Shown here: in pieces, positions 11,756-49,216 of the stretch
Numbering within the stretch: the stretch's first letter is position 1
How the letters are laid out: each line of letters begins with the position of its first letter
Assembly (NCBI RefSeq): GCF_000317515.1
Contig: NC_019738.1
Span: forward strand, 2,754,001-2,818,000
DNA: 64,000 nucleotides
Direction: 5' to 3'
From: Allocoleopsis franciscana PCC 7113
GTDB taxonomy: Bacteria > Cyanobacteriota > Cyanobacteriia > Cyanobacteriales > Coleofasciculaceae
Notes under the pieces: model-generated
The model's input: only the letters and a program-made list of their open reading frames with translations
Database searches by the model: none
What the model was told of the DNA's origin: nothing
Position numbers and translations under genes: made by a program

Positions 11756-13129
11756 CTAAGTAATGCCACATTGTTCAAGTTTCTCGGCTAAAACACTAGC
11801 GTGATTCCACCAAGAGTAGCCACCAATCCATCGACGGGAGGGCAAATGTCCCATCGGTGCTCTCTGATTGAATTTTAATGAGGCGTCCAGATTAGGTGGA
11901 TTGTGGATTGGCCAACCCACGCGATCGCAAAAACTGGGATAATCTTTTCCTACATCTTCATAGATATACTTCTGGATACTTAAGCCAAAACGCCTGTTAC
12001 TATACTTGACCCAAAGCTGGTCAATAATCCATAAATCCTCACAGGGTAATTTTTCAATATCACCACTGCTTAGATAATAACCCAGTCGCTTGCCTAACGC
12101 TTGACACAGAAGAGTCCAAGTTTGTTGGTCTGCTTCTTTCCATTTATTTCGGCTTAACAAATTTTGCAAGGGAGTGTAGTCAATACCAATTTCTGAAACT
12201 AAAGTATGACCATTAATCCTACGGCTAGACGTGTAGTTTGTTTGGGGCGTTAACTTCAGAGCTTGCAAAACAGCATCCGTAGATTGAAAGCGATCTTTAA
12301 TGGTATTTTGCAATAATTGCTCCAGGATTTTACTGAGGCGATCGCTCACTCGCTTTTCCGGAAGCAAAAAATCACGCCACACCCAACAGCCATTAATTGA
12401 ATCAAACAAATCCAGAGGCGGAACTTCCGTTAATAAGTGAATGCAAGTCACACCTAAACTATAGAGATCACTTGCCGGAAAGACTTTTCCCTTAATCTGT
12501 TCGGGGGGCATGTATTCGGGAGTGCCCGTAATTGTGCCCGTTTGCCAGAGTGCTGTATCAGAAAGAAGCTTAGCCACTCCAAAATCAATTAACACTAACT
12601 TTTTATCCTCGCGACGACGGATAATGTTAGCGGGCTTGATATCGCGATGAATGACTTTATGGCTATGGATATATTGTAAAACTGGCAACAAATCTTGCAA
12701 TAACTCCCAAATTTGAGCTTCGTTGTAAGCCCCTTTAATATCTAATTCTTGCTTAATTGTTTGTCCATTAATTAACTCTTGTACCAGATAAAGTTGTCGA
12801 TTTTGTTCAAAGTGTGCCCAAAGAGTAGGAATTTGGGGATGTTTACCCAGTTCATCTAATCGCACGGCTTCTTGCTGGAAAAGTTCCGTAGCTTTTTTCG
12901 CAACCAAACTGCTTGGATTATGTATGTAGAGTTGCTTAATCACACAGTGAGGTTTAGAGGGAATATCCTCATCCACCGCTAAAAAGGTTCTGCCAAATCC
13001 ACCAGAACCAATCGGTTTTATTGAGCGATATCGCTCTTTGAGCCATAATTTAGAGCCACAACTGAGACAATATCGAGCTGAATCTGGATTTTGAGGAGAG
13101 AGGCATCCAGGAGTGACACAATAAGTCAT
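11756..13129 (-). CDS. Ser/Thr protein kinase with C-terminal GUN4 domain
   Basis: A 457-residue soluble protein. A four-Cys zinc ribbon at the N-terminus (C4, C9, C21, C24) leads into a full kinase domain (about 34-292: glycine loop GSGGFGRTF 41-49, Lys65, HRD 161-163, DFG 182-184, and PEYMPPEQ in the activation/APE region). A C-terminal GUN4 domain (about 316-446) has the typical DYTPLQNLLSRNKWKEAD start and DRVGWP and PMGHLPS motifs. GUN4 binds Mg-porphyrins and stimulates Mg-chelatase in chlorophyll synthesis, and kinase-GUN4 fusions may sense tetrapyrroles. No membrane segment is visible. The neighbouring siroheme genes are a suggestive but unproven link. Confidence 0.93.
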   Translation of the reverse strand: MTYCVTPGCLSPQNPDSARYCLSCGSKLWLKERYRSIKPIGSGGFGRTFLAVDEDIPSKPHCVIKQLYIHNPSSLVAKKATELFQQEAVRLDELGKHPQIPTLWAHFEQNRQLYLVQELINGQTIKQELDIKGAYNEAQIWELLQDLLPVLQYIHSHKVIHRDIKPANIIRRREDKKLVLIDFGVAKLLSDTALWQTGTITGTPEYMPPEQIKGKVFPASDLYSLGVTCIHLLTEVPPLDLFDSINGCWVWRDFLLPEKRVSDRLSKILEQLLQNTIKDRFQSTDAVLQALKLTPQTNYTSSRRINGHTLVSEIGIDYTPLQNLLSRNKWKEADQQTWTLLCQALGKRLGYYLSSGDIEKLPCEDLWIIDQLWVKYSNRRFGLSIQKYIYEDVGKDYPSFCDRVGWPIHNPPNLDASLKFNQRAPMGHLPSRRWIGGYSWWNHASVLAEKLEQCGIT

Positions 13130-13996: not shown

Positions 13997-16900
13997 TTAG
14001 GGCTTTTTAAGGGTTTGTTGGATGGGAATCTGAATCACAAACTCAGTCCCTTGACCCAACTGGCTATAGAAATGTAGTTTACCCCCGTGTTTTTCCACCA
14101 CAATCTGATAACTAATCGACAACCCCAACCCTGTACCTGTTCCCACGGGTTTGGTCGTAAAGAAGGGGTCGAATAGTCTGGCTTTGACTTCCTCACTGAT
14201 TCCTGGGCCGTTATCGGCAATGTGAATGGCGACCTCATTGTCGTTGCACAGTTCTGTACAGACTCTGATATAGCTGGGATTGGCGTTGATTTGTTCCGGC
14301 GTTAGCGTTTGGTTTTGCTCATCAATAGCATCGATCGCGTTGCTGAGTAAATTCATAAACACTTGGTTAAGCTGTCCTGCATAACACTCGACGAGTGGCA
14401 AGTTGCCATATTCTTTAATCACTTTAATTTCAGGATGCCCTCCGGAAGCCTTCAAGCGATTTTGCAGAATCATCAGGGTACTATCGACGCCGTCATGCAG
14501 ATCGACGGGTTTCATTTCTGCTTCGGCAAAGCGGGAGAAATTCCGCAGCGCTGCCACAATTTCACAAATCCGCTCAGCACCAACCTTCATGGAACTGAGA
14601 AGTTTAGGTAAGTCTTCCAGCAGAAAATCCAAGTCAATCGCGGCAATTTCCCCCTCAATTTCCGGCATGGGATGGGGATAGTACTGTTGATAGAGCTGTA
14701 CTAAACCCAAAATGTCTTGGGTATAGTCAGTGGCGTGCATGAGATTGCCATAGATGAAGCTCACGGGGTTGTTGATTTCATGAGCAACGCCTGCTACTAG
14801 TTGTCCAAGACTGGACATTTTTTCACTCTGCACCAGTTGCGCTTGGGTTTTGCGAAGTTCAATCAAGGTTTGTTCTAGTTGTTGAGCTTGTGATTGAGCT
14901 TGTGCCATTGCCGTACAACTTTGCTTGTAGAGTTCCGCTTGTTGTAGGGCGATCGCTAACTGGTCTGCTACCTTACAAATTAATTCCACCTGCGAATCTT
15001 GCCAATGGTAGGATTCAGTATTCATCACCAGTGCCAGTGCCCCCCACATGGAGTCACCAAAATGCAACGGTACCAGTAACCAAGAACCTGGAAGTCCCTG
15101 AATACAAGCGTTATAGACCTCGTCTTGCCAAAGATGAGTATCGTCAATCCGAACAACTTCTAATCGCTTGAGTCGGTCAGCGATCGGATTATTTTGATCG
15201 GAAATTTCCAGACTTTGACACGCTGAAGTACATACGCCCTTGCAAGATTCAGCAACACTGACCCACAGCTTTTGTTCGGGTAAGTATTGTACGATTTGAG
15301 CACAGTCTACTTCTAGGAGTTTCTCAATCTCACAGGTAGCGGTAGAAAAAATAGTTTGTAAGTCTAAAGAACGACGGACGGCCTGAGTGAGTTGATTGAG
15401 AGCTTGTTCCCGTTGACGCTGATACTGAGCTTGTTCATAAAGTTGGCTTTGCTGGATGGCGATCGCAACTTGGGAGGCTAAGGACGTGAGCAAGTCCATC
15501 TCCCATTGCCCCCATGTCCGGGGTTCTGTGCAGTGATGAGCAATCAGCAATCCCCACAATCGATTTTGGCTGGAAGGCTCCCCCCTATCCCCCTCTGGGT
15601 AAGGGAAAGTTTGATTCTGAAGAGTTTGTTCACTCTGTAGAATGGGCACAACGAGGTTAGCTCGCACCTGCAACTGAGTGAGTAAATTAATATGACACGG
15701 GTCTATATTGGCGTTGTAGATATCCTCGATCGCCTTGACCCGACCCTGTTGGTAAGGCACGATATAAGATTGCTTAAAACAAGGGTCATAAATGTTTCTG
15801 CCCAAAATCGAGAAGCAACTCGACGCCACAGATTCTACGACGACATTTCCACTCCAATCCGGCTCAAACTGAAAAATCACGACTCGGTCCGTTTGCAGCA
15901 CTTGTCGCACTTCCGCCGCCGTCGCATTCAGGATTTCCTCTAGGTTTAACGATTGGCGAATGCGCCCAGAAATCGCACTGACTAGGCGTTCCCGCTGAAA
16001 CTGCTGCTGTAGGGAGGCTTCCGCCTGTTGGCGTTGAGCAATTTCAGTTTGGGCTTGCTGGTAAAGTTCAGATTGCTGTATCGCGATCGCGGCTTGGGTA
16101 GCGAGGGAACTGAGTAAATCAATTTCCAACGACTTCCACATCCGGGGTTTGGAGCACTGTTGGGCAACTAACAATCCCCACAATTGCTCTTCGTGAACGA
16201 TGGGAACGACCAAGTTCGCCCTCACCTGAAGCTGAGCGAGTAGATCGCGGTGACAGGGTGTTAAATCTGCGGTGTAGATATCTTCTACCGCCTGAACTCT
16301 CCCTTGTTTGTATAGCTTGATATAGGCTTGTGCAAAGTGGTGGTCATTAATGCTGATGCCTGAAATCGGCCTCCAGCCAGAGTCCACCGATTCTACGACA
16401 ATTACCCCACTGCCATCGGGATGAAGGCGAAAGATAATCACGCGATCGCAGGCCAAAACTTGCCGCACTTCATCCACCGTGGTGTTGAGAATTTCGTCTA
16501 GGTTTAAGGACTGATGAATGCGTTGTGCGATCGCCCCCAGCAACTGCTCCCAGAGAAATTGCTGTCGCAATGCTTCTTCTGAGTGCTGACAACTCTCCTC
16601 TAAAGAAGCCTTACACAGCATCTGACTCTGCCGCCTTATTTCTTGTGCTTGCTTGTACTCGGTAATGTCTTCACAAATGAGAGTGATGATTGGGTCGGTT
16701 TCGGTGTTTGGCACTAAGCTAGCCTTAGCTCTCACCCACATCACGCTGCCATTTTTGCGGACAAGGCGAGTTTCCCATTGAGTTAGCTGATGCGGCGGTT
16801 GTTGTATTGCCGTTAATTGAGCTTGACAAATGGCTTCATCTTGCCCATAAAAAATGTCGCCGATGGGCTGTTGTGCTAGCTCAATCACCTCATAACCAAG

Positions 16901-17161
16901 ATAATCAGCGGCGAACTGGCTGACGGCAAGCATGATTTTCGCCGAATTGATCGCGAAACCAATACAGGGAAGACTATCATAGACCGTCAGAATGCCTTCT
17001 AAATCCACTCGTTTCAGGTTTAGGATTTGAAAGTCTTCAGTCTGATCCGATTTTTGAGTAGAGGTCATGGGCTGAATCGGCCTGAGGTCGGCATGATTCT
17101 GAGGAGACTCATGCCACTTAGATAGATGATCGACGTTCATTTCTCTGTTCCTAACCCTCAA
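13997..17161 (-). CDS. Histidine kinase with PAS and two cyanobacteriochrome-type GAF domains
   Basis: A soluble sensor kinase of 1054 residues. Order: PAS with PAC (about 55-172), GAF1 (about 212-365), GAF2 (about 402-572), GAF3 (about 590-742), a coiled coil, HisKA (phospho-acceptor His794 in GVAHEINNP) and HATPase (NAIDAI, DNGPGI, GTGTGLGLS). GAF1 and GAF2 carry the bilin-binding Cys-His pair (Cys303-His304 and Cys489-His490) before LQVRANLVVPI. GAF2 also has a DXCF motif (459-462), whose Cys461 lies 28 residues before Cys489, as in blue/green cyanobacteriochromes such as TePixJ. GAF3 lacks these. It is therefore a probable photoreceptor kinase with no adjacent regulator gene. GAF2 also has an insert at about 509-533. 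Confidence 0.9.
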   Translation of the reverse strand: MRVRNREMNVDHLSKWHESPQNHADLRPIQPMTSTQKSDQTEDFQILNLKRVDLEGILTVYDSLPCIGFAINSAKIMLAVSQFAADYLGYEVIELAQQPIGDIFYGQDEAICQAQLTAIQQPPHQLTQWETRLVRKNGSVMWVRAKASLVPNTETDPIITLICEDITEYKQAQEIRRQSQMLCKASLEESCQHSEEALRQQFLWEQLLGAIAQRIHQSLNLDEILNTTVDEVRQVLACDRVIIFRLHPDGSGVIVVESVDSGWRPISGISINDHHFAQAYIKLYKQGRVQAVEDIYTADLTPCHRDLLAQLQVRANLVVPIVHEEQLWGLLVAQQCSKPRMWKSLEIDLLSSLATQAAIAIQQSELYQQAQTEIAQRQQAEASLQQQFQRERLVSAISGRIRQSLNLEEILNATAAEVRQVLQTDRVVIFQFEPDWSGNVVVESVASSCFSILGRNIYDPCFKQSYIVPYQQGRVKAIEDIYNANIDPCHINLLTQLQVRANLVVPILQSEQTLQNQTFPYPEGDRGEPSSQNRLWGLLIAHHCTEPRTWGQWEMDLLTSLASQVAIAIQQSQLYEQAQYQRQREQALNQLTQAVRRSLDLQTIFSTATCEIEKLLEVDCAQIVQYLPEQKLWVSVAESCKGVCTSACQSLEISDQNNPIADRLKRLEVVRIDDTHLWQDEVYNACIQGLPGSWLLVPLHFGDSMWGALALVMNTESYHWQDSQVELICKVADQLAIALQQAELYKQSCTAMAQAQSQAQQLEQTLIELRKTQAQLVQSEKMSSLGQLVAGVAHEINNPVSFIYGNLMHATDYTQDILGLVQLYQQYYPHPMPEIEGEIAAIDLDFLLEDLPKLLSSMKVGAERICEIVAALRNFSRFAEAEMKPVDLHDGVDSTLMILQNRLKASGGHPEIKVIKEYGNLPLVECYAGQLNQVFMNLLSNAIDAIDEQNQTLTPEQINANPSYIRVCTELCNDNEVAIHIADNGPGISEEVKARLFDPFFTTKPVGTGTGLGLSISYQIVVEKHGGKLHFYSQLGQGTEFVIQIPIQQTLKKP

Positions 17162-21357: not shown

Positions 21358-21744
21358 TTAAATCCTCTCAAACCGTTTGAGACGAGCGGTGATCGCACTA
21401 AGCAATTCTTTTCGCGTAAAAGGCTTAGTTAAATAATCGTCTGCTCCTAATTCCATGCCCAATCGCATATCATCTTTAGATACTCTTGCCGTCAGAAAAA
21501 TAAAGGGAATGTTGGCAGTGGTAGGATTAGAACGTAAGCCTGTCAGGACATTATGACCGGTGACTCCTGCCATGGTTACATCGCAAAGTACAATATCTGG
21601 CAATTCTCGTAACGCTATTTCTAGCCCCTCTCTACCGCCTGAAGCAACAAGCACTTGATATTTATCTGAAAGCAGGTCTTCCAGATTTTCTCTAATTTCT
21701 TTTTCGTCTTCAATAACTAGGATTTTTGCAGAATTCTGGTTCAT
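21358..21744 (-). CDS. Single-domain response regulator (REC)
   Basis: A CheY-like receiver of 128 residues with no output domain. It has the acidic pair Glu12-Asp13, phospho-acceptor Asp55 (IVLCDVTM), Thr85 (FLTARVS) and Lys107 (YLTKPF). It could relay phosphate from any of the orphan histidine kinases in this window or act by protein interaction. It sits between the AtzG-like and AtzE-like genes, all on the same strand (gaps of 246 and 225 bases), an unusual position that may place amidase expression and signalling in one unit. Confidence 0.93.
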   Translation of the reverse strand: MNQNSAKILVIEDEKEIRENLEDLLSDKYQVLVASGGREGLEIALRELPDIVLCDVTMAGVTGHNVLTGLRSNPTTANIPFIFLTARVSKDDMRLGMELGADDYLTKPFTRKELLSAITARLKRFERI

Positions 21745-26256: not shown

Positions 26257-28644
26257 TCATGATTCATACTTTAATAAAGTCGTCTCAATATCAGTTCGCA
26301 TGGCAGAACTATATCGACAGTCACTATTAAGACAATCCACCAATAACTTATTTGCTTGATAATACTGCTTGAGTCCCTCTAATTCCAAGGCTGTTAACGG
26401 CAAACCCTGACCAATTTGGCGATACTCTACTAACATGGAGCGAAATTGCGCTGCCCACACCTGACCATCCGTCTTCCACCATTGCAGCGAGTAATCTCGA
26501 CCTTTTCCCAAATCAGGTAATTGCTGTTTGAGTTGCTGGAATGATTGACTGAATAGCGATCGCTTTTGTTCCCCACCCAACCCGGATTCTCTTTCCAAAA
26601 GTTTCTCCAAGTTTAAAGCAAAACCCAGCGCCAAAATTTGTTGGATGTCAGGATTGCGCGTCAGACTCTGTACTAAAGAGAAAGCACGCGCTAACTCTAA
26701 ATCTAAAGCCAATTCCGGTGTCAAATCGCGAGCGAGATTTTGATCCAGCGCCACCGCTAATCCTAAATCACGGTCTAAAAAGAGAGTAAAATAAAAGGCA
26801 CGTACTGCCGCTGGTTTGTAAGAGGTTTGCAGCAAATAGCCTTTTTGACTAATACCCGTCAAGAACTCCTGCAAATGACAATTTTCTGCTATCAAGCTAT
26901 CAATTTGCTGCTTCATTAACTTGAGTAACGGTTCTGCATTCCTCAATAATCCAGCCGTTAGTAAAAAAACTTCCCGCCACTGAGGTTCCCGGATGTGGGT
27001 ACTCAACCGTTGCAATGCTTCCATGAGGGTTGCTGTATCCGGACTAGCAACAATATTCCGAGCCGTTAAATACTCTTGAAAGGTTAAATGAGAAAATGAA
27101 TAAACCCCTAGTGCTCGTTCCACTAATAACCCATGTTGTGCCTCAATTGCTTTCAACACCGCTTCGCTGTTCAGCCGCAGTGTTTCTGGGTCTGTGTTGG
27201 CTCCTGGTAAAGTAGTGAGATAGTCAGCAATATGTTGCTCAATTTCAGTTTGTTCAAAGAAGTAATTTCCTTCTTCAAACGTTGTAGCTGCAATATGGCT
27301 CAAAAGTTTCATCTTGTGAGGTAGAGACAAATTTCGATAAATTTCATCTCGTTGAATGCCTCGCGCTTCGTCCCAGCGCACCAATAAAATATCTAATCCA
27401 GCCTCATATAATTTGGAGCGTTTTTTGGGAAAATCGGCCTTAGCCTGAAATACACTGACGGTTAAATTCAATAAAATGGGGGTTTTCGCAAGTTCTCGAA
27501 TGGGTTGGTTTTCTGGTAACTTCAGTTTGTCAATAAACTGAGTGGCTAGATTTAAACCGTCCTCTTCGTTTGGTTTAGACGTTGCTGTAATAAACCATTT
27601 TTTAGCAAAGGCTTCGATTTGAGTTTGGTCGAAATCGGCAAGCTCAACATAGGTAAATCCAGGAAAACGGTACGGTTGAGCTGCAAAACGACAGGTAATA
27701 ATAAAGGAATTTTGATAATAGGTTTCCGAAAATTTAGTAATTTGTTTGAGTAGCGTATCGATATAATCAGCTCGGACTTCGTCTAACCCATCCAGCAAGA
27801 TTAACAGCTTGCCGTGTTTGAGCAAGGTTTCCACATGCTGTACCGAAATTCCAAAATCACTTAACTTTTGATTTATATAATCTAATAAACTAAAATCATC
27901 TCCAATCGTAATCGTGTTACCGATCGCTTCCTCTGCCAAGTTTCTCAGTTGAATAAAAATAGGAATTCTAGCTAAAGGTAACTCGCCTCGAATACACTGA
28001 AGTGCGACTTTTTGTAAAAAGGTGGTTTTCCCCGCTCCTGGCTTGCCCATCACCATCAGTTTGGGGTAAGTTGCGATTATCCTTTGGGAATCCGCCAAGT
28101 TACTTGTATCCAGCGCTAGAAATCTCTTTTGGCTCGATTGAGTCAAGCCTAAGCGATCAAAGGGGGTGACTGTCGCTGATTGTAAATCAGAAACCTCTAG
28201 CCATTGTTGAGAACTCAGTTGTTCGAGAATGTTGACATTGACATAAATTTCATCCAATGGTATCGGTTGAGCAATATCAAGTAACCGCAAGGTACCACAC
28301 TGGGCAAGAATGGGGGAATCAAGGAGCGATCGCACCTGTTCGACCAATGCATCCACATCAGAGACCACCGTTAAATTCTGTACAATTGGTGCTATCTTTT
28401 GAGCGGGTGGTGCTGAGTTCAGGTTTAAGTCAGCAATCTCTTGCCAATCCAGATCCAAGCACAAACAAATATCGATAAAAATATGGCGCTCAATGGGTTG
28501 ACCTTTGAAGAACTTCCAAACCGACTGGCGCGTCTCTAACCCCACTTCACTCGCCAGATACTCTTGCGTCCATCCTTTACGCTGGAAGGCTTTTTTAGCC
28601 TGCTCAATGCCTACTGTAGATGCTCGAAGCGATCGCTTTACCAT
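26257..28644 (-). CDS. NACHT NTPase with N-terminal HTH (NLR-like STAND protein)
   Basis: A 795-residue STAND-class ATPase. Residues about 13-70 form an XRE-like helix-turn-helix (GWTQEYLASEVG ... SVWKFFKGQPIER). The NACHT core spans about 190-480: Walker A GKPGAGKT (200-207), Walker B LLILLDGLDEVR (280-291, with the extra acidic residue typical of NACHT), and a sensor ITCRF (316-320). A helical C-terminal region (about 480-795) resembles the NACHT C-terminal helical domains of cyanobacteria, without WD40 or LRR repeats. Bacterial NACHT proteins are known antiphage factors, so defence is plausible. A transcriptional-regulator role through the HTH is the alternative. It contains HIP1 sites, so it is not a very recent arrival. 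Confidence 0.9.
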   Translation of the reverse strand: MVKRSLRASTVGIEQAKKAFQRKGWTQEYLASEVGLETRQSVWKFFKGQPIERHIFIDICLCLDLDWQEIADLNLNSAPPAQKIAPIVQNLTVVSDVDALVEQVRSLLDSPILAQCGTLRLLDIAQPIPLDEIYVNVNILEQLSSQQWLEVSDLQSATVTPFDRLGLTQSSQKRFLALDTSNLADSQRIIATYPKLMVMGKPGAGKTTFLQKVALQCIRGELPLARIPIFIQLRNLAEEAIGNTITIGDDFSLLDYINQKLSDFGISVQHVETLLKHGKLLILLDGLDEVRADYIDTLLKQITKFSETYYQNSFIITCRFAAQPYRFPGFTYVELADFDQTQIEAFAKKWFITATSKPNEEDGLNLATQFIDKLKLPENQPIRELAKTPILLNLTVSVFQAKADFPKKRSKLYEAGLDILLVRWDEARGIQRDEIYRNLSLPHKMKLLSHIAATTFEEGNYFFEQTEIEQHIADYLTTLPGANTDPETLRLNSEAVLKAIEAQHGLLVERALGVYSFSHLTFQEYLTARNIVASPDTATLMEALQRLSTHIREPQWREVFLLTAGLLRNAEPLLKLMKQQIDSLIAENCHLQEFLTGISQKGYLLQTSYKPAAVRAFYFTLFLDRDLGLAVALDQNLARDLTPELALDLELARAFSLVQSLTRNPDIQQILALGFALNLEKLLERESGLGGEQKRSLFSQSFQQLKQQLPDLGKGRDYSLQWWKTDGQVWAAQFRSMLVEYRQIGQGLPLTALELEGLKQYYQANKLLVDCLNSDCRYSSAMRTDIETTLLKYES

Positions 28645-28881: not shown

Positions 28882-31800
28882 ATGTGGGACATTATTTTCC
28901 AGATCATCAGTGCAGCAACAATCGGCTTACTCGTTGGCTATTTCTGGGGCCGGGGAAAAAAAGCCTCCTCTCCAGAAAGTGATCCGGTTTGTCCAAACAA
29001 TCTCCGAGAGTGCCAACAAGCTGAGGAGTCCTTACGGGAGAGCCAACGCACATTAACGACCCTGATGAGCAACCTACCGGGCGTGGTCTACCGATGCCAG
29101 AACGACTGCAATTGGACAATGGAATTTGTCAGTGAGGGCTGCTATCCCCTGACTGGCTATCACCCCGCCGACTTAATGGAGAACCGAACAGTCTCCTACG
29201 GACAACTCATCCATCAGGATGATCGCAACTGGGTCTGGAACGAGATTCAATGCGCCTTGCAAGAGTCCCGACCCTTTCAGTTGACCTACCGCATTATCAC
29301 CGCAACTGGCGAGGAAAAGTGGGTTTGGGAGCAGGGATGTGGAGTGTTTTCTCCTCAAGGGGAAGTGTTAGCCATCGAAGGCTTCGTGACCGATATTACA
29401 CAACGCAAGCAATTTGAAAAGTCCTTGCAGGAGAGTGAGGAACGATTTCGCCGTCTATCAGAAGCCACTTATGAAGGGATTTTAATCCACGAGCAGGGCG
29501 TGATTATCGACGCGAATCAAGCGATCGCGAAAATGTTTGGATACGAAACCGATGAACTCATTGGGGTGAGTGGCTTTCACCTGCTGGCTCCCGAATCGCG
29601 AGATATCGCCTTAAAGCAGATTCAGGCCGCCTATGTAGAACCTTACGAAGTCGTTGCTTTGAGCAAAGAAGGCTCTAAATTCCCCATAGAAATTCAAGCC
29701 AAACTGATTCCTTACCAAAATCGCTTCGTGCGGGTTGTGGCAATTCGGGATATATCCCGTCGCCAACAAATCGAAAAAGAACTACGGCAAGCCAGAGACC
29801 AGCTACGAGCCGTTTTGGATGCCGTACCTGGAAGTATTAGTTGGATTAGTTCCGAATTAAACTACCTAGGCGTTAATCGCTATTTAGCCAAAAGCTTCAA
29901 CCAACCCCCAGAATTCTTTGTCGGCAAACCCATCGGCTTTCTTCAGCCCGGTTCGCAAGTGAGCGAGTTCTTGCGTCAATTTTTTGCAAGTTCCGAGTCA
30001 GAAGCCTCCCTGGAATTAGACTGGCAAGTCGATGGTGTTCCTTCCCATTATTTAATTGTTGCCCAAAAGTATCTGCAAGGCCAAGCCGCTGTCTGTGCCG
30101 GGTTTGACATTACTCGACGCAAGCAAGCCGAGCAAGAACTGCGCTACAGTGAAGCCTGCATTCGAGCGTTGTATGAAGTGACAGCCGCTCAAGACCTGAC
30201 TTTTAACCAACGCCTCCAGAGGTTATTAGAACTTGGATGTGGCTGGTTTGGCCTGGATATTGGATTGTTGGGACGCTTAGAGGAAAATTGTTATCAAGCG
30301 ATCGCCTTTGGCGGTGCCCAAGGGGCAATCGCAGCTTTTGCGGCAGTGCAGTCCGATCATCTGGAGCCGAATGTCTTAGTCTACGATTTTGTTCAGGAAT
30401 CTCAGGGGAGAACGGATTTTCCAACAACCGCCAACCCCGCTTTATCCACACCCATACTCCCCAAAGGCAGTATTTTTGATTGGAAGCTGAGGAATTGCCA
30501 GAAGATTTGGCAAGCCGCAGAATTAGTGAACCTAGAGTCGGCAGTGGCGGCTCAATTGTCCGGCTATCCAGCACAGTCTATCGCGGCGATGGAGGCTTAT
30601 CTGCGTACCCCAGTAACTGTTGCCGGTCAGGTTTACGGCACCCTCGGCTTTTGGAGTTGTCGTAAACGCAACCGCAACTTCAAAGCGGTGGAACGGGAAT
30701 TGTTGAAGCTGATGGCACGGTGGATTGGGGGTGAAATTGAACGGCAACAAGCCGCAGATGCCTTGCAACAACAGTTTCATCGTGCGTTACTGCTCAAACA
30801 AATTACCCAAGAGATTCGCCAAAGCTTAGATACCCAACAAATTTTACAGACGACGGCGATGCAAGTGGGGCGGGCACTTCGCGTCAATCGTTGTTTATTG
30901 TTTCGATATGAGGCGACGCCACCCTCTCGGTTAGTCTGTGTGGCGGAATATTTAGGGGGAAGGCATACATCCCTCCTCGATTTATTAGAGCTTGCCGTCA
31001 AAGGCAATCCTTACCTCGAAGAAATATTGTCTCAAGACCGAGCGATACCCGTCACTCATATCGATGGCTATCAGTTGTTGCAACCTTTTGTGCGCCTGTT
31101 TCATCGCCTCGGTGTGCAATCCTTGTTAACGGTTCGCACCTCTTATCATGGGCAACCGAACGGTGTGATTAATGTACACCAGTGTGATGCAATCCGAGGT
31201 TGGAGTGAGGATGAAATCGAACTACTTGAAGCCGTAGCCGATCAAGTGGGAATTGCCCTTGCCCAAGCTCACCTTTTAGAACAAGAAAAGCAGCAACGTG
31301 AGCAACTGGCTGAACAAAATGTAGCACTAGAGCAGGCCAAGCAGGCAGCAGAAGTCGCCAACCAAGCCAAGAGTGAATTTCTGGCGATGATGAGTCATGA
31401 AATCCGCACACCAATGAACGGGATTATTGGCATGAATAACCTGCTGCTCAATACTTCCCTCACAGAGCAACAACAAGAATTTGCGCGCACCATCGGCAGC
31501 AGCAGCGAGGCTTTGCTGCGGATTATTAACGATATTTTAGACCTTTCCAAAATCGAGTCCGGGAAGCTGGAGTGGGAGGATCAACCGTTCGATTTGCTCT
31601 CTTGTATTGAGGCGGCGGTGAATCTACTGACTCCGAAGGCGGTTGATCAACGCCTAGAGTTGACTTACCAGATGGACGCCCAAACTCCACTCACTCTGGT
31701 GGGAGATGTGACTCGGTTGCACCAAATTCTGCTCAATCTCCTGAGTAATGCGGTCAAATTCACGGATGCGGGTCAAGTCAAGGTTTCAGTCACCGCCCAT

Positions 31801-33231
31801 GCATTGGGAAATAGCGAACCATCTAACTTAGTTTTAAACCCCCATTCCCCATTTCCCAGGCTCTATGAGATCCAGTTTGCTGTCCAAGATACAGGTATCG
31901 GCATTTCCCCAGAGCAAATGAATCGACTGTTTAAGCCCTTTAGCCAAGTGGATGCTTCAACCAGCCGACGTTACGGAGGGACAGGTTTAGGTTTGGCGAT
32001 TAGCCAACGGTTGTGCGAACTGATGGGAGGTCGAATGTGGGTTGAGAGTCACGGGGTGTGTGCTGGAAATCCGCCTGAAGATTTAGTCTGGGAAAATCGC
32101 AATCGCCCAGGCGATGAGCCGATCTTAGATACCGTTGAATTTGACCCGTTATCTCACCCTCCAACATCCTCAGGCTCTACATTCTATTTCACCATCGTTG
32201 CTCCGGGTTATCCTTTCACCCAGCCAGTTCGTGATCAAGGCGATCGCTTACTGCTTGAACGTACTCTCCCAATCACTCAACCCTTTCCATCGATTCCGTT
32301 ACGGATTCTACTGGCGGAGGATAATCGTGTAAACCAGCAGGTTGCCCTACTAACTTTGAAACAGTTGGGATATCAAGCCGATGTGGTCAATAATGGTCGA
32401 GAAGTCCTCGAAGCCTTGCGCCGTCAGCCCTACGACGTGGTGTTGATGGATGTGGAAATGCCCCAAATGGATGGATTGACGGCTACCCGTCTGATCTGCC
32501 AAGAATGGAATGCCGACCTCATACTAAAAAATGCTGGCAAAGAATCACCGATTACTCAATCCGATGCAGTAACCACTTATCTCCAATCCCAGCGTCCCCG
32601 AATTATTGCCATGACAGCTTACGCGATGGCGGGCGATCGCCAAAAGTGCCTTGAAGCTGGGATGGATGACTATATCAGTAAACCCATCCAAGAGCAGGAG
32701 CTGATTCGAGCTTTACAATTGTGCCAGTCTGCAATCGGTGAGTCTAGAAAGCCGCCAACACAGGAAGGCGGGGGAGCTGGGGAGCTGGGGAGCTGGGGAG
32801 CTGGGGAGCCGGGGAGCCGGGGAAAAAGTCTGCTATCTTTGACTGCAACTGGGTATGACAATGTTGATTCTCCACCCGTACTCGATCATCGGGTACTCAA
32901 CTCCCTGCGGCAAATGACGGGTAGCAAAGCCGCCACGCTCTTACGTCAAATCATCGATGATTACCGAGAAGATGCTCCTCAACAGCTACAAGACATCCGG
33001 GACGCTGTGGCGGCTGGGGATGCTCAAGCCTTGCGACAGTCCGCCCATACCCTCCGTTCCAGCAGTGCAAATCTGGGTGCAATGAATCTCTCCTATCTCT
33101 GCAAAGAGTTGGAAATGATCGGGCGTGCGGGTACTACGACGGATGCGCCGGAGTGGATAGCGCAGGTAGAAGCAGAGTATGAGAAAGTAAAAGTGGCTTT
33201 ACAACTCGAATATAAGCAATTTTCTTCATGA
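28882..33231 (+). CDS. Hybrid sensor histidine kinase (TM-PAS-PAS-PAS-GAF-GAF-HisKA-HATPase-REC-HPt)
   Basis: A 1449-residue hybrid kinase with one N-terminal membrane helix (about 4-22). Three PAS domains (about 58-172, 186-296, 305-415) are followed by a diverged GAF (about 425-620), a second GAF (about 635-800) and a coiled coil. HisKA has His839 ([15 protein letters not shown]). HATPase has [18 protein letters not shown] (1003-1008) and [11 protein letters not shown] receiver (about 1140-1275) has Asp1190 ([12 protein letters not shown]) and Lys1267, and a C-terminal HPt (about 1335-1440) has His1389 ([13 protein letters not shown]). All phosphorelay residues are present. The REC-HPt linker (about 1293-1325) is encoded by an inserted repeat. 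The stop overlaps the start of the next regulator gene by four bases. Confidence 0.94.
32770..32856. repeat. Dispersed repeat within kinase coding sequence (copy D)
   Basis: A run of GGGGAGCT/GGGGAGCC octamers (about 32770-32823) is followed by ctatctttgactgcaactg (32833-32851 and onward), which matches the left end of the MITE-like element at 17559-17582 in 23 of 24 bases, reverse complement. It is read in frame and encodes a Gly/Ser/Glu-rich linker between the REC and HPt domains. Confidence 0.8.
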
Positions 33232-45997: not shown

Positions 45998-48900
45998 TTA
46001 AGACTGTAACGGCAGCGTAACAGTAAAGGTTGTTCCTACTCCAACCTCACTCTCCACAGTAATCTCGCCCTCGTGCAAATCTACACACCGTTTAACAATG
46101 GCTAGCCCTAATCCTGTCCCAGGAATGGCACCCACATTGCTTGCTCGCCCAAAGGATTCAAATAAACGCTCTAAATCTTGGGGGGGAATGCCAATTCCGC
46201 TGTCTTGAATGCGGAACATAACCCAAGTGCGATCGCAAACTAAATCGAATTTAACAGTTCCTCCATCCGGGGAATATTTAATCGCATTAGTGAGTAAATT
46301 CGTCAAAATATGACTTAATAGTTTTTCATCCATTTGGGCATCACGAGCCTCACCAATCACCACAAAATCAAGCTGATGTTGCGGCTTTGCACTCATTTGC
46401 AAACTTTCAACCAAGTCACAGCAAAAAGCGACTAAATTGATGGGGGACGGCGTGAACTTCAGTTTTCCCGCTTCAGCTTTGCCAATCGTCAGAACATCTT
46501 CTAACAACTGAGTCATCCGTTGCACGGCATTTTGAATGCGCCGATAGTGATTTTGTTTCTTCTCCTCGGATAATTTATGGTTGTAGCGTTCAAGCAGTTC
46601 CGCTGAGGATTGAATTGTCGTTAGGGGTGTGCGAAACTCGTGGGACACTAAAGACACAAATCCCGATCGCAATTCGCTCAGTTCTCTTTCCCTTTCCAAA
46701 GCTTGAACAATTTCAGCTTCAGCCTGCTTGAGTTTTGTAATGTCCCGTCCCACAGCCTGAAACTCCAGGATATTGCCAAAGTCATCAAACAAGGCTCGGT
46801 TCGTCCACTGTTGCCAGCGATTTTCTCCACAAGGCAGAATAATTCGGTGTTCGTGAGTCACAATAGGCTGTTCTACACCTAGAAAACTAAAACTCTGGGT
46901 AACCAATGCTTGGTCTTCTTCTGGAATTACTGGCATAAAGCTGTAACCAATCAGCTCAGAACGCTGCTTATGGAAATAGCGGCAGTAAGCATCATTAACA
47001 AACGTGAGAGTTCCGTCTGGCTGATATCGACAGATCAATTCAGTTTGATCTTCAATAATGGCACGGTAGCGAGCCTCACTCTGTTGCAAAGCTTCCTGGG
47101 CTTGCTTGCGTGCTGTGATGTCCTCGATCATGGCTAATGTATAGAGGATACACCCCGATTGATCGCGCAAAGCAATCAAAGTTAAATTCACCCAGACAAT
47201 CTCTTGATTCTTTTTCTGGTAACGTTTTTCTAACTCAAAGCTATCTATTTTTCCGCTTATGAGCTGCTCCATACAAGGAATTTCTAGCGCTAAGTCTTCG
47301 GAATAAGTAATAGCCTCAAACGTGAGCGCCATGAGTTCAGACTCGGTGTACCCCAGCATTTCATAAAAGGCTTGATTCACCCTGATGTAGCGATTATCCA
47401 AGCCTGCCAGCGACATTCCAATCGGGGCTTCGTCAAACACTCGGCGGAATTGTTCTTCGCTTTGACGAAGGGCGGCTTCTGCCTGTCTACGTTCTGTGAT
47501 GTCCTCGACCATGCCTAAGCCGTAAAGGATTTTTCCCGACTCGTCGCGCAGTATCATTGAGGTTAAATTGCCCCAGAGAATCTCTTGATTCTTTTTGATA
47601 AAACGTTCTTCGACTTGAAAGCGGTCAAGTTCTCCTTGTTCTATCTGCTTGAGATAGGGAAGTAAACGCTTCCAGTCTTCGGGATGGGTGATATCCTCGC
47701 AGGTTAGGCTGATAAATTCAGACTCACTATAGCCCAGCATTTCAACTAAGGCTTGATTCACCCTGAAAAAGCGCTTATCCTTTGCAGTTACCCCCATGCC
47801 AATCGGTGCCTCGTTAAACACCCGGCGGAATTGTTCTTCGCTCTGACGCAGCGCTGCTTCTGTACGCTGACGTTCAGCAATCTCGGCACTCAGTTGCTCA
47901 TTGATGTGCTGAAGTTGAGCAGTACGCTCCTCAACTCTTGTTTCTAGCTCGTTCATCACCTGTTGCAGAGTGGCTTCTGCCTGTTTTTGATCGCTAATAT
48001 CCAAGACTAGGGAGAAAATTGACACCAAATTGCCCGACTCATCGAAGAGTGCCGAGTTGTACCATTGGCAATAAACAATTTTTCCATCTTTGGTATAGTT
48101 GCGATTTTCATCTACAGTGCGTTGTAGAGTTCCATCCATTAATTGACTCAGGATTTGATCAACTGTTGGAGCATCTTCTTCATAGACGAACTGCCATTCT
48201 TTAGGATGGCGATTGAGAACCTCAGCAGTTTTCCAGCCAAATATTTTTTCTGCCTGTTTCGACCAACGCTGCAAGCGAAAGTCCTTGTCCCACTCCAGAA
48301 TGGCTAAAGGCGAGTTATCGACTAAAAGTTCCAATTGCTGATAGGCTTTTTGTAGCTCAGCTTGTGCCCGTTTGCGCTCCGTAATATTCGCAATAAACCC
48401 CACCATGCGATTAAGATGACCCGCATTATCGGTGTAAAATGTACCGTTGTCTTCCAGAATGATGTAACTACCGTCTTTTTGACGCATCCGATACTCAACA
48501 TGGAGTCGCTCTTTAGTGGCAATAACTCGGTTAAGCTCTTGGATAACTTTCTCTATGTCATCGGGATGAATTAACTCCATCCACTGCTCTAAAGAGCCTG
48601 AGAGTTCTTCCTGGGCATAACCAAAAACTTGTTCAACATTAGAACCCCAAATAATTTCCTCTGTCTGACTATTCCATTCATAAAGCAACAGACCATTAAT
48701 TTGACCGGCGGCTTCATAGCGATTTTTCCATTCGGTTAATTCTGCAACGGCTCGTTGCAAATCTAGTTCCACGGGTTGATTTGCGAAATCGTTACGACTT
48801 TGAGCGCTGAAAATTGCTACATCTTCTACTTGTTTTGCCGTTGTAATGTCCTTCGCCACTCTATAGACAAGTCCATCTTCTGCATTGGATACTCGCCAAG

Positions 48901-49216
48901 ATAGCCAACGGTAACTTCCATCTTTGTGGCGATAGCGATTTTCATATTCGACAAAGTTGTTTTGGCGATGCAGGTTCTCGGTATTCAGTGTCAACTCCCT
49001 ATCATTGGGATGAACAAGTTCAAGCCAAGGGATGTTTTGTAAATCAGACACCGTCCATCCCAGCACATTTTCCCACGCTGGATTGATCTGCTGGAAATAG
49101 CCATTTTCCTGCGTGATACAGAATAAGTCGAATGATAAGGTCAGAAATCTATTCAAAGCCGATTCTGCCTTTGCAGAATTTTCATTATCTTCGATGGGGA
49201 ACTTAGGAGCATTCAT
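45998..49216 (-). CDS. Six-PAS sensor histidine kinase
   Basis: A 1072-residue soluble kinase. Six PAS/PAC units lie at about 20-130, 165-282, 290-410, 455-578, 583-705 and 712-830, with a coiled coil at about 410-455. HisKA has His859 (LVSHEFRTPLTTI). HATPase has ILTNLLTNAIKYSPDGG, DSGIGIP and [14 protein letters not shown]4 and PAS5 are a recent tandem duplication (both begin with AALRQSEEQFRRVF and EAPIGM). There is no transmembrane segment, REC or HPt, so it is a cytoplasmic kinase. Its partner regulator is unknown, as no response-regulator gene is adjacent. Confidence 0.93.
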   Translation of the reverse strand: MNAPKFPIEDNENSAKAESALNRFLTLSFDLFCITQENGYFQQINPAWENVLGWTVSDLQNIPWLELVHPNDRELTLNTENLHRQNNFVEYENRYRHKDGSYRWLSWRVSNAEDGLVYRVAKDITTAKQVEDVAIFSAQSRNDFANQPVELDLQRAVAELTEWKNRYEAAGQINGLLLYEWNSQTEEIIWGSNVEQVFGYAQEELSGSLEQWMELIHPDDIEKVIQELNRVIATKERLHVEYRMRQKDGSYIILEDNGTFYTDNAGHLNRMVGFIANITERKRAQAELQKAYQQLELLVDNSPLAILEWDKDFRLQRWSKQAEKIFGWKTAEVLNRHPKEWQFVYEEDAPTVDQILSQLMDGTLQRTVDENRNYTKDGKIVYCQWYNSALFDESGNLVSIFSLVLDISDQKQAEATLQQVMNELETRVEERTAQLQHINEQLSAEIAERQRTEAALRQSEEQFRRVFNEAPIGMGVTAKDKRFFRVNQALVEMLGYSESEFISLTCEDITHPEDWKRLLPYLKQIEQGELDRFQVEERFIKKNQEILWGNLTSMILRDESGKILYGLGMVEDITERRQAEAALRQSEEQFRRVFDEAPIGMSLAGLDNRYIRVNQAFYEMLGYTESELMALTFEAITYSEDLALEIPCMEQLISGKIDSFELEKRYQKKNQEIVWVNLTLIALRDQSGCILYTLAMIEDITARKQAQEALQQSEARYRAIIEDQTELICRYQPDGTLTFVNDAYCRYFHKQRSELIGYSFMPVIPEEDQALVTQSFSFLGVEQPIVTHEHRIILPCGENRWQQWTNRALFDDFGNILEFQAVGRDITKLKQAEAEIVQALERERELSELRSGFVSLVSHEFRTPLTTIQSSAELLERYNHKLSEEKKQNHYRRIQNAVQRMTQLLEDVLTIGKAEAGKLKFTPSPINLVAFCCDLVESLQMSAKPQHQLDFVVIGEARDAQMDEKLLSHILTNLLTNAIKYSPDGGTVKFDLVCDRTWVMFRIQDSGIGIPPQDLERLFESFGRASNVGAIPGTGLGLAIVKRCVDLHEGEITVESEVGVGTTFTVTLPLQS

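Follow-up and report, generated by a model that had tools for sequence, protein, structure and literature searches.

A conserved tandem-GAF histidine kinase of Allocoleopsis franciscana PCC 7113, probably a cyanobacteriochrome reading two colour pairs

Analysis of a 64,000-nt stretch of the Allocoleopsis franciscana PCC 7113 genome (the window) showed a histidine kinase gene whose product is probably a soluble cyanobacteriochrome kinase reading two colour pairs. The evidence consists of sequence motifs, their spacing and conservation, the relatedness of the domains, the predicted fold and the bilin supply encoded by the genome. The first-pass annotation had raised a two-colour kinase as a possibility; pocket residues, the tree, the predicted fold and a conserved asymmetry point to two GAF types, which would serve a single kinase. 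The protein is a well-conserved instance of a known photoreceptor kind, not something new. Coordinates below are positions within the window, and residue numbers are counted from the TTG start. The gene and its domains are as follows.

13997..17161, minus strand: histidine kinase, PAS-GAF1-GAF2-GAF3-HisKA-HATPase; 1054 aa if begun at the TTG, more probably 1047 aa with the ATG at 17140 as start.
16637..16990, minus strand: PAS domain, approximately residues 58-175 (Pfam PAS_9, 5.7e-09; PAS_3, 1.6e-05).
16070..16522, minus strand: GAF1, approximately residues 214-364, single-Cys cyanobacteriochrome type (Pfam GAF, PDB matches, tree).
15440..15964, minus strand: GAF2, approximately residues 400-574, dual-Cys DXCF type (Pfam, PDB matches, tree, pocket residues, Foldseek).
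14867..15376, minus strand: GAF3, approximately residues 596-765, without the canonical bilin Cys-His motif (Pfam and sequence).
14018..14866, minus strand: HisKA and HATPase_c (Pfam and kinase box motifs).

The ATG at codon 8, preceded by AGGAACAGAGAA, is the likelier start codon, and starting there would lower all residue numbers by 7. The numbering used in the first-pass annotation agrees with the TTG start of the ORF translation; the N-terminal PAS domain and the third GAF were added by Pfam and the sequence. All boxes expected of a sensor histidine kinase are present and intact, namely the H-box GVAHEINNP (791), the N-box NLLSNAIDAI (937), G1 DNGPGI (983) and G2 GTGLGLS (1009). The HATPase_c domain was matched in Pfam at 3.5e-24, and HisKA scored below its own Pfam cut-off (21.4 vs 26.9 bits).

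Clustering with cyanobacteriochromes had been named beforehand as the test on which the assignment could fail, and both GAFs fall among the cyanobacteriochromes by tree, sequence and predicted fold, with PPHK, miRFP670nano/NpR3784 and TePixJ as best PDB matches. The PDB sequence matches of the GAFs are bilin GAFs (PPHK, miRFP670nano, TePixJ, NpR6012g4 and RcaE). Foldseek with the AlphaFold2 model of the tandem, whose matches are not split by GAF, returned PPHK (54% across some 180 columns), miRFP670nano (highest TMt 0.96) and TePixJ 4GLQ (TMt 0.91, 1.1 Å). The Cys-His pairs claimed for the two domains were found in the sequence, as Cys303-His304 in GAF1 and Cys489-His490 in GAF2. The DXCF motif and the canonical Cys of GAF2 map as follows.

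15776..15787, minus strand: D459-P-C461-F, DXCF motif of GAF2 (sequence).
15695..15697, minus strand: Cys489, the canonical GAF2 Cys, 28 residues beyond Cys461 (sequence).

The spacing of Cys461 and Cys489 equals that of C494 and C522 in TePixJ (PMC6955287), as had been proposed. GAF2 combines the Cys-His pair and a second Cys 28 residues upstream with a predicted TePixJ-like fold and a place in a clade of 11 rows (support 98), all with DXCF, nested in a mostly DXCF set. The TePixJ GAF (PDB 4GLQ, 4FOF, 3VV4) is a DXCF blue/green domain, and its pocket is identical to that of GAF2 at 10 of 13 compared positions; the shared residues include D-P-C-F, C-H, the Ile two residues before the Asp, the D-ring-contact His and the alpha4 Leu. 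GAF2 differs from it in a 22-residue hairpin insert and in its host protein, a histidine kinase instead of a methyl-accepting chemotaxis-type protein. TePixJ forms a long branch (end branch 1.07) away from GAF2 in the tree, so the blue/green call rests on the motif and the pocket residues and not on near kinship.

Typical DXCF domains isomerise phycocyanobilin (PCB) to phycoviolobilin (PVB) and switch from blue to green (PMC11284453), and GAF2 should likewise be a blue/green domain with PVB. A teal variant carries Phe at the beta2 and alpha4 positions (PMC5240096); GAF2 has Val and Leu there, which argues against that variant. Of the violet/blue-to-green photocycle predicted by the first-pass annotation, the dual-Cys DXCF type was borne out by pocket, tree, predicted fold and conservation; blue/green is likelier than violet. 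The extent of PVB formation is not set by the DXCF motif alone. GAF2 could keep its PCB un-isomerised despite the two Cys residues and run a blue/orange cycle, a colour pair that exists in the phytochrome superfamily (PMC6955287). We consider this unlikely, since PVB and blue/green switching are typical of DXCF domains (PMC11284453) and the pocket matches TePixJ at most positions.

GAF1 carries the canonical Cys and lacks the second one.

16253..16255, minus strand: Cys303, the Cys at the canonical bilin-attachment site of GAF1, with His304 next to it; invariant in 16/16 GAF1-clade members.
16334..16345, minus strand: D273-HHF, standing in GAF1 where DXCF would be, with no second Cys (sequence).

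Reading DHHF at this place as the mark of a single-Cys type of different colour, as was done at first, is backed by pocket residues, tree, predicted fold and relatives: in the pocket alignment, none of the 16 clade members carries the second Cys of the DXCF motif. As a side observation, GAF1 of L014/L080 and of L096 has DCHF, with a Cys one position ahead of the usual second-Cys site, and a different adduct might form there. GAF1 is predicted to bind PCB and to absorb red light in its dark state, with a photoproduct that is harder to predict. The red/green-tuning Phe residues are missing at the beta1 notch, beta2 and alpha4 (the absence at alpha4 sets GAF1 apart from 14 of the 16 clade members), so homology does not dictate the colour of the photoproduct.

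The lineage of GAF1 is the least settled and most interesting point of the analysis. A typical XRG red/green domain was rejected, because GAF1 has no Trp of WXDXXL (Ile-Asn-Asp-His-His-Phe stands there instead) and is placed apart in the tree. With XRG domains (AnPixJg2, NpR6012g4, Slr1393g3) it shares the single canonical Cys-His and the conserved Asp; it differs in the missing Trp, the missing beta2 Phe and its separate branch. The closest PDB matches of GAF1 are PPHK (6OAP) and then miRFP670nano. PPHK (Leptolyngbya sp. JSC-1; PDB 6OAP, 6OAQ, 6OB8) is a dual-sensor histidine kinase whose single-Cys GAF switches between Pg and Pr, with Pg at 562 nm (PMC11480761). Its beta1-notch Phe and D-ring Asn are both absent from GAF1, and its non-light sensor responds to phosphorylation, whereas the second sensor of the window kinase is, by its motif, another bilin-type GAF.

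In keeping with these matches, GAF1 may possibly belong to the NpR3784 red/green lineage as an ordinary member, absorbing red in the dark and forming a green photoproduct. That lineage, which supplied the template for miRFP670nano, resembles GAF1 in sequence and in lacking both the second Cys and the XRG Trp. The NpR3784 reference was rebuilt by reverting the 18 published miRFP670nano substitutions, and the result was consistent. GAF1, however, lacks two residues described for the NpR3784 group: the beta1-notch Phe (PMC5240096), in place of which GAF1 has Ile and its entire clade Ile, Leu or Val, and the Val two residues before the Asp (PMC11284453), which is Ile in GAF1. The D-ring contact position also differs, being Asn in NpR3784 and Gln in GAF1, where it is the first Gln of LLVAQQC. 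This Gln occurs in 16/16 GAF1-clade members and 2/61 DXCF rows; at the same position, N117H gave miRFP670nano a D-ring hydrogen bond. In the free tree GAF1 belongs to a 16-sequence clade (SH-aLRT 95) separate from the NpR3784/PPHK clade. A tree joining the two clades was not rejected by the AU test (p-AU 0.67) and had a higher likelihood than the quick free tree. GAF1 may thus have lost its second Cys independently, but this is a possibility only and was dropped as a firm claim, the free tree pointing there and the AU test giving no ground to insist on it. We suggest tentatively, and with considerable doubt, that GAF1 represents an uncharacterised single-Cys lineage, which would have lost the second Cys independently of XRG and NpR3784, be marked by the Gln and have its own photocycle, on a fixed-pitch stalk where relatives have swapped in blue/green- or RcaE-type second domains.

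The asymmetry between GAF1 and GAF2 was found in ten distinct proteins, with no second Cys in GAF1 and DXCF in GAF2 (the window protein, L013, L002/L012, L020, L014/L080, L015/L083, L016/L082, L017/L079, L019/L023/L081 and L121). It is therefore conserved and not a private degeneration, and the conservation of both motifs in same-genus and same-family relatives shows that they did not arise by chance. The orthologue in a same-genus genome (L013) is 88% identical. A paralogue in the host genome (G000:C1 1058270-1062370; L012:2271-6371) is about 75% identical in its GAFs and kinase part; this 1366-aa protein shares the GAF1-GAF2 tandem, has an extended N-terminal region and lacks the GAF2 insert. 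The tandem also occurs in same-family genomes, in Coleofasciculus, Limnofasciculus and Symplocastrum, and on other cyanobacterial contigs. The host genome (7.97 Mb, 9 contigs; chromosome contig 7,470,429 bases) encodes at least 79 GAF domains, several with DXCF, and a sensor of this kind is therefore nothing out of the ordinary here.

One or both GAFs might have ceased to bind bilin and serve as structural or dimerisation modules only. GAF3 of the same protein has no bilin motif, and non-bilin GAFs thus do occur in this stalk. For GAF1 and GAF2 this is very unlikely, since the canonical Cys, the Asp and the pocket residues are kept in the examined relatives.

GAF2 has additional residues after its Cys-His motif.

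15566..15631, minus strand: GAF2 insert, residues 511-532, a variable disordered beta-hairpin loop (alignment, spacing, model).

Between the canonical Cys and LWG, most GAFs, that of the paralogue among them, span 24 residues, and a few span 44 to 54; GAF2 and its same-genus orthologue span 46, which is 22 more than usual. The first-pass annotation had called this insert unusual and close to the bilin pocket. Its existence was confirmed, and the rest was weakly borne out: the loop is short in 98 of 117 measurable GAFs and longer, with variable length, in the other 19, and the insert forms a disordered hairpin tip in the AlphaFold2 model (pLDDT <50). Retention of the insert in the 88%-identical orthologue would fit a functional role at the bilin pocket, with an effect on colour or kinetics. 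Such a role is nevertheless highly improbable: the insert is absent from the close paralogue, ranges from 0 to 29 residues in the family and is modelled as disordered, and other GAFs and RcaE (6, relative to the host-genome GAF used as query) also carry additional residues at the equivalent place. The insert is best seen as an ordinary tolerated surface loop that was somewhat over-read at first. A genome-wide DNA search gave no second copy, its longest hits being chance-level matches of 25 bases, and the core pattern of the insert had no match in the genome with up to 3 mismatches allowed. A dispersed or mobile repeat was ruled out by this single copy in the whole genome. The L013 insert contains a Cys (NQTSPCPEGDKEDAP); the window insert has none.

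The pitch, counted between the LWG of one GAF and the canonical Cys of the GAF after it, was exactly 162 residues in 23/23 tandem pairs of the group, compared with 148 to 184 in other tandem types of the set. It holds with a DXCF or an RcaE-like second domain, and any loop insert in the first GAF lengthens the loop alone. In the AlphaFold2 model a single 60-residue helix joins GAF1 and GAF2. The fixed pitch agrees with the integration of signals by regularly spaced sensor domains on coiled coils (PMC6798134). Seven loci (L085, L090, L091, L093, L094, L095 and L103) have a GAF1 relative followed at the 162-residue pitch by an RcaE-like GAF with a CL motif and no DXCF. The RcaE-like second GAF in these relatives is a natural swap of the colour module.

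We infer bilin attachment, the colours and the direction of kinase control. In GAF2, PCB would be attached at Cys489 and isomerised to PVB, and Cys461 would add to C10; by analogy with TePixJ, the blue-absorbing dark state would open to a green-absorbing photoproduct. In GAF1, PCB would be attached at Cys303. Without a second Cys, this domain would absorb red (or orange) light in the dark and form a green-to-orange photoproduct. Both signals would pass through the continuous, fixed-length helical stalk to the HisKA/HATPase module, which would phosphorylate an unlinked response regulator. The host encodes three heme oxygenases and PcyA and is thus able to make PCB; PebA and PebB are also encoded.

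A receiver domain is absent from the kinase, and its gene has no response regulator gene beside it. The closest single-domain response regulator gene lies at 21358-21744, and nothing marks its product as the partner. Two genes downstream of the kinase gene, window 11756-13129 (minus strand) encodes a fusion of a Ser/Thr protein kinase with GUN4, a domain of a tetrapyrrole-binding family; the neighbourhood looks alike in a same-genus genome (L159). The window also encodes a NACHT NTPase with an NCH2 C-terminal domain (26257-28644, minus strand), an adjoining large hybrid kinase with PAS/GAF/HisKA/receiver/Hpt domains (28882-33231, plus strand) and a histidine kinase with about five PAS domains (45998-49216, minus strand).

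Among the papers searched, none treats cyanobacteriochrome kinases of Coleofasciculus or PCC 7113 that read two colours through a tandem. Kinases of the cyanobacteriochrome type that carry several bilin GAFs have been described before; the way in which a single one of them integrates two colours is poorly understood. The present family offers a clean system for studying this, as colour types, order and exact spacing are conserved and relatives carry another second domain at equal pitch. The GAF1 clade may be home to a photocycle not described so far.
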